A stretch of 64,000 nt of DNA from Lichina pygmaea (Eukaryota > Ascomycota > Lichinomycetes > Lichinales > Lichinaceae). How positions within the stretch are numbered: position 1 is the stretch's first letter; each line of letters starts with the position of its first letter. Under the pieces are notes generated by a model, which searched no databases, was not told where the DNA came from, and was given only the letters and a program-made list of their open reading frames with translations. The DNA lies in the NCBI GenBank assembly GCA_963422465.1, contig OY730174.1:3064914-3128913 (forward strand), written 5' to 3'. Position numbers and translations under genes: made by a program. Below, piece after piece: positions 21,457 through 35,910 of the stretch.

Positions 21457-21939
21457 ATGATGATGAGGCACTATCTTCAAGAAACCTCAGAAAAAATGCA
21501 GCACCAAATAGACAAGAAATTGAAAATGGCACCTCAGCTAAAGAAGGGGGATAAAGTCTACCTCCTCACAAAAAATTGGAAAGTCAAGAAACCAAGAACA
21601 AAGAAACTGGACCATGTCAAGGTCAGACTATTTTCAATCAAAGAAAGAACTGGACCAGTCAACATCAGACTGCGACTACTGAGAGACGCTCAGGTACACC
21701 CAAACTTTCACATCTCAATGATTGAATTAGCTGACCAGAGCACACCCTTGCAGGAAACATTTCATTACCAACCAGAGGAAGAACAGGAATTCAAGGTCAA
21801 ACAGATCTTGAAGAAAAAAGGTCAGCAATACCTTGTCAAGTGGAAAAACTACCCAGACTCAGAAAATACCTGGGAACCACTCAGGAATCTTGCAAACTGC
21901 CAGCTTCTCCTGCAGCAGTTCTGGCAGGAGCAGGACTGA
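21457..21939 (+). pseudogene. G1-b integrase C-terminal region and chromodomain block
   Basis: 160-codon open block: KKGDKVYLLTKNWK, the GPY-like segment, VHPNFHISMIE, then chromodomain EEEQEFKVKQILKKKGQQY and YLVKWKNYPDSENTWEPLRN. It ends QFWQEQD at the pol stop. Its last part overlaps the end of the antisense ORF. It is the best-preserved part of G1 pol. Confidence 0.85.
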
Positions 21940-22381
21940 ACAGCTTGGCCTGCAGCACAGACATGTCAATGACTGTTGCTGACAAGTCTTCACTATCTGC
22001 CTCTATTTCAGCAACAAGGCACTGGAGCTTCTTCTTTGCTTGACCCTCAGCACCTTTGAGAACCTTCCACTTTCAGGACACACAAGCCTGCAGCTTGGCA
22101 AGCTACTCAACAAGAGTATCCCGCTTGGCCTTGTCAACAGCCAAATCCTCACAAAGGTTATCTTGGGTCATGTTCAGTGACTCCCAAGAAAGTGACACAC
22201 AGGACTTCCCACGACAAGTGCACTCAGCGCACTTCAACTTATTGTTGTTGTCAGATATTTGGAAGCAGGGCTTGTGGTTCAAAACACAGAAGTCACACAG
22301 AGCAAGTGACACAAAGTTATAATCACAGATCTGGGCTGCCAGTTGTTTTTGGTAAGCAGAGGCACGTGATTTTGCAGACAT
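21880..22381 (-). pseudogene. Antisense accessory ORF of G1-b, Zn(II)2Cys6-like
   Basis: Starts at ATG 22381 (MSAKSRASAYQKQ), 45 bp from the 3' LTR, and reads toward pol. Six cysteines have spacing C-x2-C-x6-C-x11-C-x2-C-x6-C (CDFCVLNHKPC, then CAECTCRGKSC), the fungal Zn(II)2Cys6 pattern. A helical Lys/Gln/Leu-rich region follows. In-frame stops after DTLVE (about 22103) and once more downstream break it. The frame ends near the chromodomain, overlapping pol antisense. G1-c carries the same ORF and G2 a divergent equivalent. A DNA-binding role is inferred from the Cys pattern alone. Confidence 0.65.
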
Positions 22382-28256: not shown

Positions 28257-28925
28257 TGTTGTGGCCTGTACTGTACTGTCCTATCCGAGTATAGGATTAG
28301 GGCGAGAGGTGGAAGGTGGGTTGGTTCTCGCAGGAGAGGAGTGTCAAGGAGTGTGAAGGGGTTTGGTGGAACATGGTGGTGATGACACCTGATCAGTGGC
28401 TTTGTACAAGATTGTATTGAAGTAGATCTAGTTGTCTGGATCACAACATGAGTTGAAGACAATTATTCTATATGGGAACTATCACCAGACTATATAGTGC
28501 TCAGTCTGTGAGCTCAGTGAGCTCTGCTCACTTTGCTCACTTGGTGAGATCGGTGAGCTCTGCTCACTTTGCTCACTTGTTCATGTATACTGCAGTGAGC
28601 TGGGTGAGCTCTGCTCACTTTGCTCACTGTTCATGCACACTGCGGTGAGCTGGGCGAGCTCTGCTCACTCTGCTCACTTGTCTATGCATGCTGCAGTGAG
28701 CTGGGCAAGCTCTGCTCACTTTGCTCACTGTTCATGCACACTGTGGTGAGCTGGGTGAGCTCTGCTCACTCTGCTCACGTATATGCATGCTGCGGTGAGC
28801 ACCCCCTGGTCAGTCTCACCAGTCACATGACTGTTTCCTGTGTTATGCTGCCTGGTACTTCTGTCCAGTATCCTGTCTGCTGCTTCCTGTGAGTATAAAG
28901 ACTATGTCTCTTCTGGGTCATAACA
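28257..28925 (-). repeat. 3' LTR of G1-c (GAGCTC-type core)
   Basis: 669 bp. Its end near 28257-28500 matches other G1 LTRs, but the core (28505-28800) consists of about 50-bp units with GTGAGCTGGG...GCTCAC arms instead of CAAGAC units, and the TGTTA-proximal segment also differs. A TATATAG-like box lies near 28490. Confidence 0.88.
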
Positions 28926-29195
28926 CTATCCTCCTCTCCATCTTTCATTGTCCTGATGAAATCTGGTCATACCTCCAAAGTCATGTGTGACTGTTAGCCA
29001 AACTCAGCTTACTGCTCAAATCCGCAATCAGAGTTTTGTTTCACATACACTCTGCGACTTTTGTGTTCTCTGTGGTCATCTATGCTTCCAGATGCCAGGA
29101 GAAGACAATAAGTTGAAATGTGCTGTGTGCACTTAGTGTGGAAGGTCTTTTGTCTCTGTGTCCTGGGAATCTTTGAACATATCCCAGGACAACCT
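28926..29195 (+). pseudogene. Antisense Zn(II)2Cys6-like ORF of G1-c, first part
   Basis: Aligned with the G1-b antisense ORF, starting at 28977 where the start codon has become ATA. Cysteines CDFCVLCGHLC and CAVC are kept, but the third part has a stop and the last Cys is replaced. It is interrupted at 29195 by G2 (TSD AACCT) and resumes at 35626. Confidence 0.6.
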
Positions 29196-29601
29196 TGTTA
29201 AAGGCCAGTCCACGTTCACACAGAATGTGGGTGGTCCTGTCTTCGACCGAGGAGGGCAGGGACTCAATAGATGAATAGCAAGTGGGGTAACTCTCTTGCT
29301 ATTGTCGCTCGTAATGTGCGTTCAGCCTGGAGAGCTATTCTCTCCGGCTATCTGGGTTCTTATATACAGGAGCCTGAGGGGGGGGGGGGGTCCTCCCGAG
29401 GGGTATCAGCTTTCTGCGTGGACGAGCTCCTCGCTTAGCTCCTGCTCGTCCACCGGACGAGCTCCTCGCTTAGCTCCTGCTCGTCCACCGGACGAGCTCC
29501 TCGCTTAGCTCTTGCTCGTCCACCGGATCGGTCGGATGTTGTTCCGCATGACTAACACCTCTCCCTCGCTTACCTGGGCTGTTCTGGCCTAGGCCTTAAC
29601 A
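29196..29601 (-). repeat. 3' LTR of G2
   Basis: 406 bp, TGTTAAAGG...CCTTAACA. Three 35-bp units at 29421-29525, each with arms GACGAGC and GCTCGTC. A run of about 13 G near 29378 and TATATAAG on the minus strand near 29360. Confidence 0.93.
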
Positions 29602-29616
29602 CTATCCCCTCTCTCC
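29602..29616 (-). promoter_or_regulatory. Polypurine tract of G2
   Basis: GGAGAGAGGGGATAG on the minus strand directly precedes the 3' LTR. Confidence 0.75.
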
Positions 29617-29662
29617 AAGGGTTCTGTCCCCAGATCCTTTTTGTTCCTGCTCCTCTTTTGCC

Positions 29663-30235
29663 ATGAACCAAAGCCAGACAACTCGAACTCGTCGCCGTGG
29701 TTTTCTCTCTTGTCGTGTTGGCAAAATGGGCAAGGAATCAAAGATCGCATGCGGTGCTTGTCGTCGTGACCACGCCAAGTGTGTCGTGAGTTCCGCATCG
29801 TCTTTTTGTCGTCGGTGCATCGAGAAGGGTTGTCGCTGTGACCTTCATCTCTCGGAATCGGAATGGAAGAAGATGGAGCTTGAGCGCGAGCAGCTCGAGG
29901 CTCAGCTGCGGGAGACCGATGACCAACTGTCAAAACTGCTTCCCCGGCAGATCTGCCTCCGCCGGCAGCTGGGTTGTCTCTCACAGAAGGAGGCCGATGC
30001 CATCTGTTGTGAGCTGTCGGCTATCAAGGATCAAGAGTCCCTTGATGCTCAGGAACAAGAGGCCCTCCGCGTTATCCGCGAACGGGAGGCCCGTCAAGCT
30101 GCTGCTCCACCGTCCTTTGAGGACGTCTTCTCTTCGGAGGCTTTGGCTTCTCTCGAGCCGTTGTCTCCGTCGGACCTGGTCGCTGCGGATTTGCTCGGTG
30201 GTAATCCACCAGTTTCTGGTTCATCGCAGAGCTGA
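29663..30235 (+). CDS. Antisense accessory protein of G2, Zn(II)2Cys6-like with coiled coil
   Basis: 190 aa, uninterrupted, starting at ATG 29663, 61 bp inside the 3' LTR. The pyrimidine-rich leader before it resembles a fungal promoter. Residues about 33-60 have C-x2-C-x6-C-x8-C-x2-C-x6-C (CGACRRDHAKC, then CRRCIEKGCRC), the spacing of the Gal4-type zinc cluster. A basic N-terminus precedes it and a charged heptad-like helix (EREQLEAQLRETDDQLSKLL) follows. The C-terminal part is acidic and Ser/Pro-rich. The last 164 bp overlap the 3' end of pol antisense. Cluster, coiled coil and acidic tail are the layout of fungal transcription factors, but the protein is short and has no Fungal_trans domain. 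Alternative: a nucleic-acid chaperone. Family equivalents lie in G1-b and G1-c. Confidence 0.72.
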   Translation: MNQSQTTRTRRRGFLSCRVGKMGKESKIACGACRRDHAKCVVSSASSFCRRCIEKGCRCDLHLSESEWKKMELEREQLEAQLRETDDQLSKLLPRQICLRRQLGCLSQKEADAICCELSAIKDQESLDAQEQEALRVIREREARQAAAPPSFEDVFSSEALASLEPLSPSDLVAADLLGGNPPVSGSSQS

Positions 30236-33200
30236 AGTTCTCGGTTGGTTCCCACGAATTCTCCTCTTCGTCAAATCCTAACCACTTCACCAGGTACTTG
30301 ATTTTCCGTCCGCTTCTCCGACTGTCTAGGATCCTTTCGACATCGTACTCTTCTTCATCGTCCTTGAAGTGCCATTCTGTTTCGATTGCTGCGTCGCTGG
30401 GTGCTGGCTCGAGCAGCAAGACATGGAATACTCGGTGTATCCGTGCCTTTTTTGGCAGTCTCAGTCGGTAGTTGACTTCTCCAGTGCGCTTCTCAATCTC
30501 AAACAGTCCGATTCGTACATGATCCAGCTTTTTGCTCGGTCGCTTCGAGCGCAGGTTTTTTGTTGACAAATAGACCTTATCCCCCCTCTCCAGGGTTGGT
30601 CCCTTCAACCTTTTGCTGTTTAGGCGGTGGCTTGTTGTCTTTTGTGTGGATTCAATTGCAGTCTTCATTTCCTCATGCATAGCAGTGAGTTTTTCGACGT
30701 TCGTTGAAGTGCCACTTCCAGCCGCCATCGCTTCCCAGCGGGGGTTTCTGCCGTAGTTCGCAAAGAACAGCGTCATGCCCGTCACGCTGTGTTGTTGATC
30801 ATTGTACGCAAACTGAGCCATTGGTAGCAGTTCTACCCAATCGTCCTGTCGGTGGTTGACGTAGTGGCGTAGGTACTGTTCCATCGTCTGGTTTGTTCTC
30901 TCAGTTTGTCCGTCTGTTTGTGGATGGTAGGTAGTAGACATCCTCGTGTCTATCCCTAGCTGTCTTGTCCACGTGTTCCAGAATTTCGAGGTGAAGAGTT
31001 TGTCTTGATCCGAGATAATCTTCGTGGGTAGCCCTCGCTGGCTAACCAATTCTTTGAGCAGGACATTGGCGAGTTCGCTCGCTGTTCCTGTCTCTCGCCA
31101 CAGGATCAGGTGAGCGTATTTGGTGAGTTTGTCAACAACCACCAAGATACTGTCATATTTCACCTTTGTTACCGGGTCCTCTGACCTCGGCAGCTTCACC
31201 ACAAAATCCATTGTGATAGTATCCCAAGCCACTTCTGGGAGGTCTATTTGTTGACTCTCTCCATAGGGTTTGTGGTGTGACGGTTTGTTTTTCGCACACT
31301 CTTCGCAGTTGCGAATAAATTCCGTCACTTTCCACTTCATTCTGTTGAAGTGGTAACGTCTCCGGATCTTTTCCAGGGTCTTGTCTCGCCCAGGATGTCC
31401 GTGTAGAGGTCCATCGTGATGTTGTCGAATCACGTCCTCTTGTGCGCTCTCTGGCACTTCTTCCTTGTTCGTGGCCGCAACGTTGTGGCCTAGGGTCAGG
31501 AGTGCACCCATTTCTTCAGTTCTCGCTAACTGAGGTTGAGCATAGACCAGAGTTTGTCCTTTTGTCACTAGGATTGGGCGCTCTTCTGTCGTGTCGTCTG
31601 TCGTCATATCAGGCCGTCTGCTAAGCGCGTCCGCTCGTGTGTTTTCTGATCCTTTTCGATAGAAGATCTGGAAGTCGTATGAAGCTAAAAGCTCTGCCCA
31701 TCGGACTTGTCGTCTGTTTAGCTTCTTCGTTGTCGTGAAGTAAGCCAAATTCTTGTGGTCTGAGTACATGTCCACTGTGTACTTTGCTCCTTCCAGGTAA
31801 GGTCTCCACTCCTGGAATGCGTCGACAATCGCTAACAACTCCTTGTCGTGAACATCGTACCTGAGTTCTGGGCCAGAGAACTTTCTCGATCAGTATGCAA
31901 CAGGGTGTAGGCGGTTTTCGGCGTCTGGTTGACACAAGCAAGATCCAAGTGCTTGGTCCGAGGCATCTGTCTCCATGATGATCCGCCGTCCGGGATCAAA
32001 TGATGCCAGTATGGGTGCGGAGGTGAACTTCTCTTTCAGCTCCTGGAACACTCTTTCTTGGCTGTTCCCCCATGTGAAGGTTTCTTCCTTCTTTGTTAGT
32101 TCAGTCAAGGGTGCTGCTGTCCTCGAGTACTCCTTGATGAATCGTCGGTAGAAGTTTGCAAATCCCAGGAAGGATTGGACTTCTTTGAGGTTTTTGGGTG
32201 TTGGCCAGTCTCGTACTGCTGTGGTTTTTGTATCGTCCATACGGATTCCTTCTGTCGTCAGGATCGATCCCAAATATTCCACTTCTTTCACGTGGAAGAC
32301 ACTCTTATCAAGGCGTAACCTTATTCCTGCTTCTTGGAGCGCATGTAGGATCTTCTTGACATGCTGTTTGTGCTCCTCCAGGGTTCCATTGGTGTAAACC
32401 AAGACATCGTCGATATAAGCGGTAACAAATATATCCAGGTATTGTCGGAGGATGGTGTTAATGAGCGATTGGAACATCGCTGGTGCATTCGTAAGGCCGA
32501 ATGGCATAACAGTATACTTGTAATGCCCGTACCTTGTACGAAAGGCTGTCTTCCATTCTTCGCCATCTTTCATCCTAACCAGGTTGAAAGTGCCTCGGAT
32601 GTCGAATTTGGTAAACCACTTGGCTCCTTGGATTCAGTCCTGGATTTCCGATATTAACGGTAGCGGGTAGCGATTCTTAATCGTGATCGCATTGAGCTGC
32701 CGGTAGTCGATACACAGTCGTAATTTGCTGTCTTTCTTTGGCACAAACAATATCGGGTATCCGGCCGGTGATGTTGAAGGTCTTATGAACCCTTTCGCTA
32801 GGTTCTCGTCCAGGTAATCTCTTAAGGCCTCAAGCTTCTTTGCTGATAGAGCGTAAATAGGGCTATGTGTGGGTTTCTTTCCGTCTTCCAGCAGAATTTC
32901 GTGATCCCACTCTTGGTGTTCTGGTAGCGTCGCGACTGCTTCCTCACCAAACATCTCCTGGTAGTCTTTATACTCACTTGGCAGCTGCGGTGCCTGAGTC
33001 TCGCCCACGGCGTCATGCGTGGTGCAAAGTTGATGGTTTCGGGGCTTCATCCAAGCCACATAGGCTCGCCCTCACCGGTGGTGCTTCTTCCACCCTGCAT
33101 ATAAGATCTCTTTGATTCTCACTTTCTCTGGCTCTGCTCGAGTTGCCAGACTCCTCTTCGGAAAGACTAGGTGCCTTCTTTTCCAGTCGATCCTTGGGTT

Positions 33201-33660
33201 TTGACTTTCCAACCACGGAAGACCCAATATAACTTCATGTGGTATCTGGACCAAGTCGAATTCTTCTGATCCGATTGTCGTACTGTCGACACACAGTCGT
33301 AGGTTCTTGGTCTCCTTCGTCACTTGTCCTTGGTTGTTGGAGAGTGGTGTCCTGTCCACTACCGTTAGTTGGTATGGATTCCTCTTTTCCTGAGTCGGGA
33401 TCTTGTGCTTCCTGGCGAAACTTTCTGACATGAAGTTGCCAGTAGCTCCAGAGTCGATCATGGCGTTTGTCAGATGCCCGTTGACTCTCATCCTGATGCG
33501 AAAATGCGGACTGCAGGCTGTCGCGTCAAGGCTCTGCTCGACCCCTTCTCTCCGGAGTGTTGTCTTGCCTGCTCTTCCGACTCCGGATTTGAAGAGCACT
33601 GCTAGTTTTTTGAACAACCAAGGCCCTGAGCCTGGCGTTCTGCCGCGTGTCTTTCGCATT
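30072..33660 (-). pseudogene. G2 pol: protease, RT, RNase H, integrase, chromodomain
   Basis: Reached from gag by a -1 shift; the pol frame opens before 33659. Protease IDSGATGNFMSESFA near 33450. RT 33059-31890 with [11 protein letters not shown] and catalytic YIDDVLVYT (32410). RNase H (ETDASDQALGSC, DKELLAIV, SDHKNLAYF). Integrase with HHCC (H-x-H near 31420, CEEC at 31300), DD(35)E residues in TMDFVVKL, IISDQDKLFTSKFW and HPQTDGQTERTNQ. GPY-like segment, then chromodomain KYLVKWLGFDEEENSWEP and a basic tail. In-frame TGA codons lie at about 33072, 32634 (sister copy reads DWIQ) and 31884. All catalytic residues seen are intact, so only the stops disable it. Confidence 0.9.
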
Positions 33661-35146
33661 TTTCAGTGAAGCATAGCTCCCATGCGTCTTCTCCGCAATC
33701 ATCGTGTTCTTTCCCTTGCTGGCTTAGCTGGTGCTTGATGCTCCAGGCTTTCTTGTGGTATTCTGGGCCAGGGAAGTAGTGCCTTCTCCTTTTCTCTAGG
33801 AGATGTTCCTTGCAGTGGTGGTCCTCACATCCTTTCCAATAAGGACGTCTGCAGGCTGGTGTCGTAGCCTGGTGATAGTCCACTTGCGCTGCGATGTCTC
33901 GGGGCTGTGAGATGCTGATGGTGTCGTCCACCCATCACGTCACTCTTGCTTCGCCGTCCTCCGACAAGGTCGCATCCTGTCGTCGGAGTAGTGGTGTCTC
34001 GGGAACTGGTGGCATGCCGGTTATGTCAATCTCGTAGTCTGTTGTGTTGAATTCAGAGATCAGGTCATCCTCCCAATGAACCTTATCGATCTGGTCTTGG
34101 ATTGTGTGCAGGTCCTCCAGTGACCTCTGCAGATCGTTCTCCAGTCTTTCGATGTGCTGTCTGAGATTGTCCTCCTGTCCGAGGAGTGTTGCTTCTGACC
34201 GGTTCATGGGTAGCGTGCCTCTGGGGGCCCTCGGTGGCTCCTGAATACCCTTGCCTTTCCAGGCACCGGTGGCATTCAACTGCTTACCCTTGCCTTCTTT
34301 CTTCTTCTTGCTTTGGCAGTTGGCTGCGAGGTGTCCTACCTTCTGGCAATTGTAACACTTCCGTGTTTCTTTCTTCTTTGTTGCCTGTGGTGTTGTTGCA
34401 TCGATCTCCATGGGTGTCAAGCTGTACTTGTCTTGTGCTGGTGCTGTCTTTTTGCCCCATGGCCTTGCATGCTTGCCTCACTTCTCGAGTTCTCGTTCGA
34501 ATTGTCGGTCGTCGATGCGTACCGCTGTGTCGATCATATCCTCAAGGTCGGTGGGTCGGTCTCCTCGTGCGATGTCATCCTTGACTTGTTCCTTGAGAGC
34601 TTGGTAGAATAGTGCCGTCAAGGCACTGTCTCCCCATTGTGTCCTCACTGATAACTGTTGGAACTTCGCCGTGAAGTCTGATGCTGACCCTGTCTGCCGT
34701 AGTGCTTGGAGCTTTCGTTCCGCATCTTGTTCTTCATCAATGACCCCGAAGGTCTTCTTCATCTGGGTCTTGAAGGTAGAGAATCTCCCAATGATCTGCC
34801 GTGTCATGGTCTCCATGCTAGAGGGATCTTCCTTGTTGTTGAGGAAGTCTCGTAGGTAGACATTAAACCAGGCAAATGTCGGTCCGTCCAGGTAGGAAGC
34901 TGCGAACAGCACCTTCTCCTGTTCCGTAGGGAATTGTGCGGTGTTGAATCCGTAGTAAAGCTCAAGCTGAGAGAAGAATAATTCCAATCCCCCTCGTGAT
35001 CCATCGTACCTCTTCGGCGTACCTACCTTCAACGGCTTTGGAGGTAAGGTGAGGGTGGTAGGGACAGGTGGTTCCTGGGCTTGCGCCTGAGGCGCAGCCC
35101 GGGCTTGGCCTGCCTGCGAAGGGGTAGGGCTGCGTGGATCTGCCAT
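33602..35146 (-). pseudogene. G2 gag: capsid-like domain and CCHC knuckle, two in-frame TGA
   Basis: ATG 35146 (MADPRSPTPSQAG). A Pro/Gln-rich start leads into a retrotransposon gag domain (VGTPKRYDGSRGGLELFF, FAASYLDGPTFAWF, RFSTFKTQMKK) to 34478, where TGA follows ELEK. The frame continues with MTPMEIDATTPQ, the knuckle CYNCQKVGHLAANC (34355-34314) and an acidic segment to a second TGA at 33935, then to TAG 33604-33602 just after the slippery heptamer. Both TGA codons recur in G2c, so they predate the split of these copies. Gag builds the particle and binds the genomic RNA. Confidence 0.85.
33605..33611 (-). promoter_or_regulatory. -1 ribosomal frameshift heptamer A AAA AAC
   Basis: In gag frame the codons read TCA AAA AAC TAG. 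A -1 slip on A AAA AAC enters exactly the pol frame (continuing CTA GCA GTG), which has been open since before 33659. The heptamer is one of the canonical -1 slippery sites. It is conserved in G2c. Confidence 0.78.
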
Positions 35147-35174
35147 CGTATTGAGCTGGTGTCCTATGTGTTAG

Positions 35175-35184
35175 AGGCTGAAAC
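35175..35184 (-). promoter_or_regulatory. Putative self-priming primer-binding site of G2
   Basis: GTTTCAGCCT directly follows the 5' LTR. It does not begin with TGG as tRNA-primed sites do. TTCAGCCT is complementary to AGGCTGAA at 35317-35310 in the LTR, about 38 nt downstream of TATATAAG, close to the expected transcript start. Confidence 0.55.
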
Positions 35185-35625
35185 TGTTAAAGGCCAGTCC
35201 ACGTTCACACAGAATGTGGGTGGTCCTGTCTTTGACCGAGGAGGGCAGGGACTCAATAGATGAATAGCAAGTGGGGTAACTCTCTTGCTATTGTCGCTCG
35301 TAATGTGTGTTCAGCCTGGAGAGCTATTCTCTCCGGCTATCTGGGTTCTTATATACAGGAGCCTGAGGGGGGGGGGGGGTCCTCCCGAGGGGTATCAGCT
35401 TTCTGCGTGGACAAGCTCCTCGCTTAGCTCCTGCTCGTCCACCGGACGAGCTCCTCGCTTAGCTCCTGCTCGTCCACCGGACGAGCTCCTCGCTTAGCTC
35501 TTGCTCGTCCACTGGACGAGCTCCTCGCTTAGCTCTTGCTTGTCCACCGGATCGGTCGGATGTTGTTCCGCATGACTAACACCTCTCCCTCGCTTACCTG
35601 GGCTGTTCTGGCCTAGGCCTTAACA
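35185..35625 (-). repeat. 5' LTR of G2
   Basis: 441 bp. Four 35-bp units at about 35410-35549 (three in the partner LTR). TATA box TATATAAG at 35355-35348. Between units the sequence GCTCGTCC ACC GGACGAGC forms an 8-bp dyad. A few C/T differences from the 3' LTR. Confidence 0.93.
35348..35355 (-). promoter_or_regulatory. TATA box of the G2 5' LTR
   Basis: TATATAAG on the minus strand, downstream of the hairpin units and about 200 nt upstream of gag. It is conserved in every G2-type LTR here. Confidence 0.65.
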
Positions 35626-35910
35626 AACCTCTGTGAGGATGTAGCCACTGACAAGGCAACACACGACACACTTTTCAAACAACTTGCTGTAGTGCAGGCT
35701 TGTCTGTCTCAGAAGTGAAAGGTGTTGGAGGGTGCTGAGGTCTGTGCAAGGCAGAAGCTTCAGTGCCTGGTGAAAGAGATAGAGTTGGATGGTGAGGATT
35801 TGACTTGATCAGTCATTGACACATCCCTCCTGCAGGCCAAGCTGTTCAGTCCTGCTCCTGCTGAAACTGTCGCAGAAGAAGCTGGCAGTTCACAAGATTC
35901 TTGAGTGGTT
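35626..35910 (+). pseudogene. Antisense ORF of G1-c, second part
   Basis: Continuation of 28926-29195 after the TSD AACCT. It encodes the helical region (LCEDVATDKATHDTLFKQL and similar) with stops near 35718 and 35806. It aligns with G1-b 22170-21900 in reverse. Confidence 0.6.

Follow-up and report, generated by a model that had tools for sequence, protein, structure and literature searches.

Results

A protein gene opposite gag-pol

The window analyzed here is a 64-kb stretch of contig OY730174.1 of the ascomycete Lichina pygmaea, and it contains a Ty3/gypsy retrotransposon, G2, that carries a gene on the strand opposite gag-pol, between pol and the 3' long terminal repeat (LTR). A preliminary description of this DNA placed a frame of 190 amino acids at 29663-30235 on the + strand, 61 bp from the 3' LTR and with a 164-bp pol overlap, and these coordinates agree with ours; the frame begins 61 bp from the LTR end at 29601. 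The element itself has what is expected of a Ty3/gypsy chromovirus, namely gag, protease (PR), reverse transcriptase (RT), RNaseH, integrase and chromodomain, with LTRs flanked by a target site duplication. Its RNaseH/integrase/chromodomain open reading frame (ORF) lies at 30072-31838 on the - strand. Because the two LTRs differ by just 4 substitutions and one 35-bp repeat unit, this copy of G2 should be fairly young. Its gag-pol is interrupted by several stops, as had been noted before. The features of the element and its antisense gene are as follows.

29196..35625, - strand: Ty3/gypsy chromodomain (chromovirus-type) LTR element G2, subfamily A, defined by the LTR pair, the target site duplication and the gag, PR, RT, RNaseH, integrase and chromodomain ORFs
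29196..29601, - strand: 3' LTR, with ends TGTTAA...TTAACA; 402 of 406 bases equal those of the other LTR, outside one 35-bp gap
35185..35625, - strand: 5' LTR, with one extra 35-bp repeat unit in the LTR comparison
29191..29195, no strand: left target site duplication, AACCT (5 bp)
35626..35630, no strand: right target site duplication, AACCT (5 bp)
29602..29625, - strand: stretch adjoining the 3' LTR, which from its sequence we take to be polypurine-tract-like; on the + strand it forms the CT-rich leader of the antisense gene
29663..30235, + strand: antisense ORF, 190 codons, from the open-frame list and translation
29726..30235, + strand: likely real coding part, 169 amino acids, with ATG at codon 22, from the constraint seen from codon 22 onward
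30072..30235, no strand: 164 bp shared by the antisense gene and the 3' end of pol, an overlap found in both A and B; constraint is seen in the antisense frame and is not detectable in that of pol

Conservation of the frame among genomic copies

The scanned genome (32.47 Mb, 8 contigs) contains at least 150 copies of the antisense protein (150 scored of 276 candidates). Copy counts refer to those 100 of the 150 scored copies that are most similar, the other 50 being left out, and to 99 once copy L056 was dropped; stop counts are flattering because of this choice. The alignment is ungapped across all 573 bp in 99 of the 100 fetched copies. Relative to the first ATG, the LTR-end motif stands at -67 in 93 of 100 subfamily A copies, at -66 in 4, at -68 in 2 and at -61 in 1, and the distance from frame to LTR is 61 bp ±1 in 99 of 100, with one outlier. 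Codons 22-190 are free of stops in 83/99 copies, against 15/99 for the next best frame outside pol; from the first ATG, 37/99 are open. Among the 20 most similar copies, likewise a favorable choice, the antisense frame has 1 stop in 20 x 169 codons, compared with 32 in pol (30075-31838) and 54 in PR-RT.

The gene is not confined to subfamily A. Subfamily B is represented by 61 rows at least 84% identical to its own protein, P0040, of which 53 lack stops. Three loci of subfamily C, which is older and decayed, were read (L115-L117), and their layout is that of A and B. Since all three subfamilies carry the gene, it must be old, and the recent capture of a host gene in one copy was rejected on the same evidence. 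A profile search for more distant relatives of the G2 protein, with 8000 candidates scored, returned 79 proteins, all of at least 53% identity.

Purifying selection on the antisense frame

Divergence between subfamilies was measured as the ratio of nonsynonymous to synonymous substitution rates (dN/dS), with 10 A copies hand-picked from the fetched set and 4 B copies from the top of the B list (40 pairs). The ratio was 0.145 for codons 22-127, 0.075 for the zinc part and 0.19 for codons 63-127; bootstrap intervals for three pairs were 0.04-0.29 (codons 22-127) and 0.015-0.19 (zinc part). The other five frames of the codons 22-127 block gave 0.37-2.3. The lowest of these, at 0.37, is the opposite-strand mirror of the antisense frame and has stops in 99/99 copies. 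Further, non-CpG transitions outside pol in subfamily A are 33 nonsynonymous to 24 synonymous among changes present in 1-4 copies versus 6 to 17 among those in at least 5, as expected if the old shared changes passed selection. We conclude that the antisense gene is a protein gene at a fixed place in the family, kept by purifying selection. The preliminary description had proposed an element-encoded antisense gene, and the comparison of dN/dS across further copies that it suggested bears this out from codon 22 onward.

Two observations speak against this conclusion. CpG transitions show no frequency shift (10 nonsynonymous to 6 synonymous when rare, 44 to 19 when shared). In the pol overlap, the antisense frame has a dN/dS of 0.43 (interval 0.21-0.83, one pair), which is not lower than the 0.33 of the unused mirror frame; the overlap by itself thus cannot separate the two. 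The pol frame there gave 1.10 (0.50-2.54, one pair), so the tail of pol is not detectably constrained, and its stop lies at about the same position in subfamilies A and B. Dual selection on two coding frames was therefore rejected for the overlap, where the low frame is the mirror of the antisense frame and the pol frame stands at 1.10.

The same data bear on two readings without a selected protein. The overlap of 164 bp with pol could suggest a chance open frame or a by-product of coding on the opposite strand. We consider this refuted, to the point of virtual certainty: most of the gene lies outside pol, its frame is open far more often than the next best, it has the lowest dN/dS, and the pol frame in the overlap shows no detectable constraint. 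The second holds that the selected product is an antisense RNA, active through double-stranded RNA and silencing; antisense transcripts of LTR elements can indeed feed silencing (PMC7264820). A dN/dS far below 1 outside pol in the antisense frame, together with ungapped alignment in 99/100 copies, largely refutes this second reading, to which we give very little credence.

The start codon

Of the 190 codons originally described, the frame as such stands, and the first 21 do not behave as coding sequence. Codons 3-21 have a dN/dS of about 1 with no clear constraint (interval 0.22-5.5), and 57/99 copies have an in-frame stop within codons 1-21. For these reasons translation probably starts at the ATG of codon 22 (29726), which the sequence favors as the likelier start and which would give a protein of 169 amino acids. 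The ATG at codon 1 is disfavored by the constraint pattern and the upstream stops, yet it is present in 97/99 copies; at codon 22, 50 of the 99 have ATG and 49 have ATA. Running counter to a start at codon 22, 33/99 copies have ATA there and a stop further upstream, although the rest of their frame is open. Those copies may be decayed, or the true start may lie further upstream and be joined by an intron.

On the subfamily A tree, 19 changes are needed for any stop in codons 1-21 and 21 for ATG/ATA at codon 22. Codon 8 varies between CGA and TGA among these copies, and a 50% share of ATA at codon 22, which is a non-CpG site, is unusual.

A Zn2Cys6-like cluster followed by a predicted long helix

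The predicted protein has three parts.

29750..29839, + strand: Zn2Cys6-like six-cysteine cluster, codons 30-59, from spacing, conservation and sequence/fold comparisons
29855..30103, + strand: long helix, probable coiled-coil dimerisation segment, codons 65-147, from AlphaFold2
30104..30232, + strand: conserved C-terminal tail of 43 residues with 6 D/E and 0 K/R, from the sequence

The six cysteines are spaced C30-x2-C33-x6-C40-x8-C49-x2-C52-x6-C59, which matches both the spacing reported earlier and the generic Zn2Cys6 pattern, C-x2-C-x6-C-x5-12-C-x2-C-x6-8-C. Across all six translated frames of the window this generic spacing is found twice, and among 400 first-order Markov simulations of a 5.6-kb segment it arose in 1. 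Most copies retain both the frame and the cluster: the six cysteines are kept in 97, 99, 98, 96, 96 and 98 of 99, and all six together in 89/99. Other cysteines (57, 98, 105, 115 and 116) are kept in 25-64 of 99.

Comparisons with known proteins point the same way. Zn2Cys6 proteins made up 9/12 of the sequence matches in the PDB and 14/16 of the Foldseek matches, and the proteins matched include Hap1, Leu3, Ppr1 and Gal4. A second look at Foldseek's own list gave Zn2Cys6 in 13/14 and 10/10 rows. In two structure models a helix starts at each CxxC, at low predicted local distance difference test (pLDDT) scores in this part. The AlphaFold2 helix spans residues 44-126 of the 169-residue model, with a block at pLDDT 93-98 over residues 51-120.

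Weighing against a Zn2Cys6 assignment is, first, the Pfam family Zn_clus (PF00172), which scores 14.8 bits for P0001, below the curated cut-off of 21. Scores for other members were 15.8 (P0005), 14.9 (P0077) and 11.4 bits (P0078), with no listing for P0037 or P0040; in P0005 an unrelated Pfam family outscores Zn_clus. Zn_clus was listed for 3/10 members of A1, with a best E of 0.00076, and a search of NCBIfam with the protein gave nothing relevant. Second, a full-length profile gave Zn2Cys6 proteins in just 4 of 11 PDB matches, the top row of the 14-row fold list is a Mediator helix, and each sequence or fold match, taken singly, is non-significant. Third, AlphaFold2 gives the zinc part a pLDDT of 53-65. 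Finally, cysteine 17, which precedes the likely start and is no part of the cluster, is retained in 98/99 copies, so the contrast among cysteines partly reflects CpG decay.

The low Pfam scores and the low pLDDT in both models would also suit a different zinc-binding fold of small size, of the RING or treble-clef kind, or an accessory protein whose zinc part serves protein interaction, and the weak PDB matches include chains of RING finger 141 and Midline-1. We find such a fold improbable, given the Zn2Cys6 spacing, the helix at each CxxC in two models and the predominance of Zn2Cys6 proteins among the fold matches. A Zn2Cys6-type fold is supported by weak but concordant comparisons of sequence and models. 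The earlier proposal of a Zn2Cys6-like domain with a long helix behind it thus draws support from spacing, fold matches and the predicted helix; the profile check fell short of the Pfam threshold, and the structure check gave a model not unlike a binuclear cluster, at low confidence in that region. The C-terminal tail may be activation-domain-like, judging from its composition.

Inverted repeats in U3 as candidate binding sites

Both LTRs contain tandem repeats in U3.

29420..29527, no strand: U3 array of tandem 35-bp units whose inverted half-sites, GGACGAG/CTCGTCC, are candidate binding sites, from repeat analysis
35409..35551, no strand: matching repeat array in the 5' LTR, 4.1 units, from repeat analysis
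29361..29366, - strand: TATATA, which reads TATATAAG on the element's sense strand, from the sequence; probably the TATA box of the sense promoter

The arrays lie upstream of the sense-promoter TATATAAG and directly ahead of the antisense gene, and 1-7 units of 35 bp occur within 500 bp of the gene in 100/100 A copies. Each unit has the inverted GGACGAG/CTCGTCC pair, and across units the order becomes CTCGTCC-ACC-GGACGAG. One CpG base per arm is variable, being kept at 57% and 53% (339 units). Two subfamily B LTRs have a 47-bp unit with identical half-sites at a different spacing. Of two subfamily C LTRs, one has TGGACAAG/CTTGTCCA and the other GTGGTAGAG/CTCTGCCAC.

Some of this fits poorly with a site for the antisense protein. 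The usual triplet of the Zn2Cys6 class is CGG, from which the U3 half-site differs, and one C LTR (L115) has a different inverted half-site. Linked changes of both arms have an odds ratio of 2.6, versus 3.4 for the unpaired positions 5 and 13; compensating arm changes consequently do not decide whether the site is palindromic.

A genuine Zn2Cys6-like DNA-binding protein might instead act elsewhere, on host promoters, chromatin, nuclear entry or integration-site choice. The conservation evidence is equally compatible with this, the link to U3 is one of pattern only, and the U3 palindromes could be RNA stem-loops. Many Zn2Cys6 proteins act on metabolic genes. Set against action elsewhere are the inverted half-sites before the TATA box in subfamily A, in two B LTRs and in one of two C LTRs (TGGACAAG/CTTGTCCA), where the repeat units differ. 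We regard action elsewhere as a serious but rather unlikely explanation.

A second gypsy family with an antisense gene

The other place in the window with the six-cysteine pattern, at 22297 on the - strand, is within an antisense gene of a second gypsy family, G3.

21881..22381, - strand: antisense gene of G3, six-cysteine pattern with x11 linker and two in-frame stops, from a pattern scan
28999..29196, + strand: portion of the antisense gene in a further G3 copy, a gene that the G2 insertion has split and that resumes at 35626-35667, from tblastn and the target site duplication AACCT

The G3 gene (22381-21881) comes directly after pol, which ends at 21939. It is present in at least 150 genomic copies (150 scored of 495 candidates), many of which stay open for about 190 codons, and its spacing is C-x2-C-x6-C-x10/11-C-x2-C-x6-C. 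More distant relatives in the database are 57% (P0089), 56% (P0091) and 51% (P0123) identical; P0089 is probably from another species, because its best match to this genome is no more than 66%. Presumably G3-like proteins resemble hypothetical proteins seen in many ascomycetes.

By profile, one search of the G3 protein gave 0 families and no Zn2Cys6 protein was among 7 PDB matches; one weak Zn_clus row (12.8 bits) was found among 5 proteins. The apparent resemblance of G3 to Zn2Cys6 proteins is thus one of cysteine spacing only. A comparison by hhalign did not demonstrate homology of the G2 and G3 proteins (probability 8%, P 0.004, cysteines out of register).

Near these elements, a tandem array of 50/101-bp units lies at 28543-28800 beside the neighboring element. 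An apparent solo LTR of subfamily B type, with 69-bp period repeats, runs from 36355 down to about 35936 in reverse orientation within the chromodomain region of a gypsy pol.

Discussion

In the present study, the G2 antisense gene was found to resemble an aORF-3R, an antisense additional ORF of gypsy elements, in three respects: it is antisense, lies between pol and the 3' LTR and is kept in most copies. Our favored reading, held with somewhat better than even confidence, is that G2 and its relatives carry their own small antisense transcription factor acting on their own LTR. The protein would begin with a Zn2Cys6-like DNA-binding cluster, continue as a helix that probably forms a coiled coil for dimerisation and end in an acidic tail. 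Its mRNA may start in or beside U3 of the 3' LTR. Dimers of the protein would then bind the GGACGAG/CTCGTCC inverted half-sites of the U3 array, which precedes the sense TATA box, and could govern LTR transcription, possibly in either direction. The acidity of the tail, where 43 residues include 6 D/E and no K/R, would favor activation over repression.

The cysteine spacing of the G2 protein, and its helix topology and post-cluster helix as predicted, resemble those of Hap1/CYP1, Leu3, Ppr1, Put3 and Gal4. Those factors are encoded by host genes and are far larger proteins, whereas the G2 protein has 169 amino acids, is encoded inside a retrotransposon and has no proline in the middle loop. 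In logic, the nearest analogue is HBZ of human T-cell leukemia virus type 1, a proviral antisense gene for a basic leucine zipper (bZIP) factor that acts at the LTR of the virus itself. HBZ dimerises. It differs from the G2 protein in being a retroviral bZIP protein without common descent and in being described as blocking LTR activation.

The gene brtn was reportedly described by Zhao et al. in 2011, and its likeness to G2 is taken here from its position as given in citing papers. Carried by Boty-like gypsy elements of Botrytis cinerea and Sclerotinia, brtn is fungal, antisense and located between pol and the 3' LTR, like the G2 gene (PMC7264820, PMC8365987). Our guess is that BRTN resembles the G3 gene more than that of G2. 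Antisense ORFs are already known from gypsy elements, including Boty brtn, Grande and RIRE2 (PMC7264820, PMC8365987, PMC4227169, PMC5987419), and for years LTR retrotransposons have been reported to carry antisense genes to which no function was assigned (PMC7264820). According to the same paper, the plant aORF-3R genes (Grande gene23, RIRE2, Retand and PvRetro13) are like the G2 gene in position, orientation and presence in most copies, and the Grande antisense protein is nuclear (PMC7264820). They show no clear similarity to other proteins save an SMC domain in PvRetro13, whereas the G2 protein has a Zn2Cys6-like cluster; the word zinc is absent from the portion of text examined (PMC7264820).

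A limited search of open PMC text found no zinc-cluster antisense gene in a retrotransposon. The word antisense is absent from the fungal LTR-element papers PMC11540331, PMC13334192, PMC4427930 and PMC3248453, and repeats were excluded from the arrays in PMC3207942. The novelty of the G2 gene falls if BRTN proves to be a zinc-cluster protein.

At odds that we put below even, some fungal gypsy elements would encode a Gal4-type factor on their antisense strand and keep operator arrays for it in U3, so that regulation forms a closed circuit with the logic of HBZ and a fungal fold. In this genome two gypsy families, whose proteins have no demonstrable common descent, each have at least 150 scored copies of a gene of this kind, and such genes could therefore be common in fungi and go unnoticed as "hypothetical proteins". 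The G2 antisense gene can be read as coding for a conserved protein that resembles a transcription factor and has putative binding sites within its own element, which makes the question of function directly testable. It hints that one solution may have arisen twice, once in a retrotransposon and once in a retrovirus. It also offers a possible route by which one element-encoded regulator could drive a response of hundreds of dispersed LTRs, with effects on neighboring host genes.
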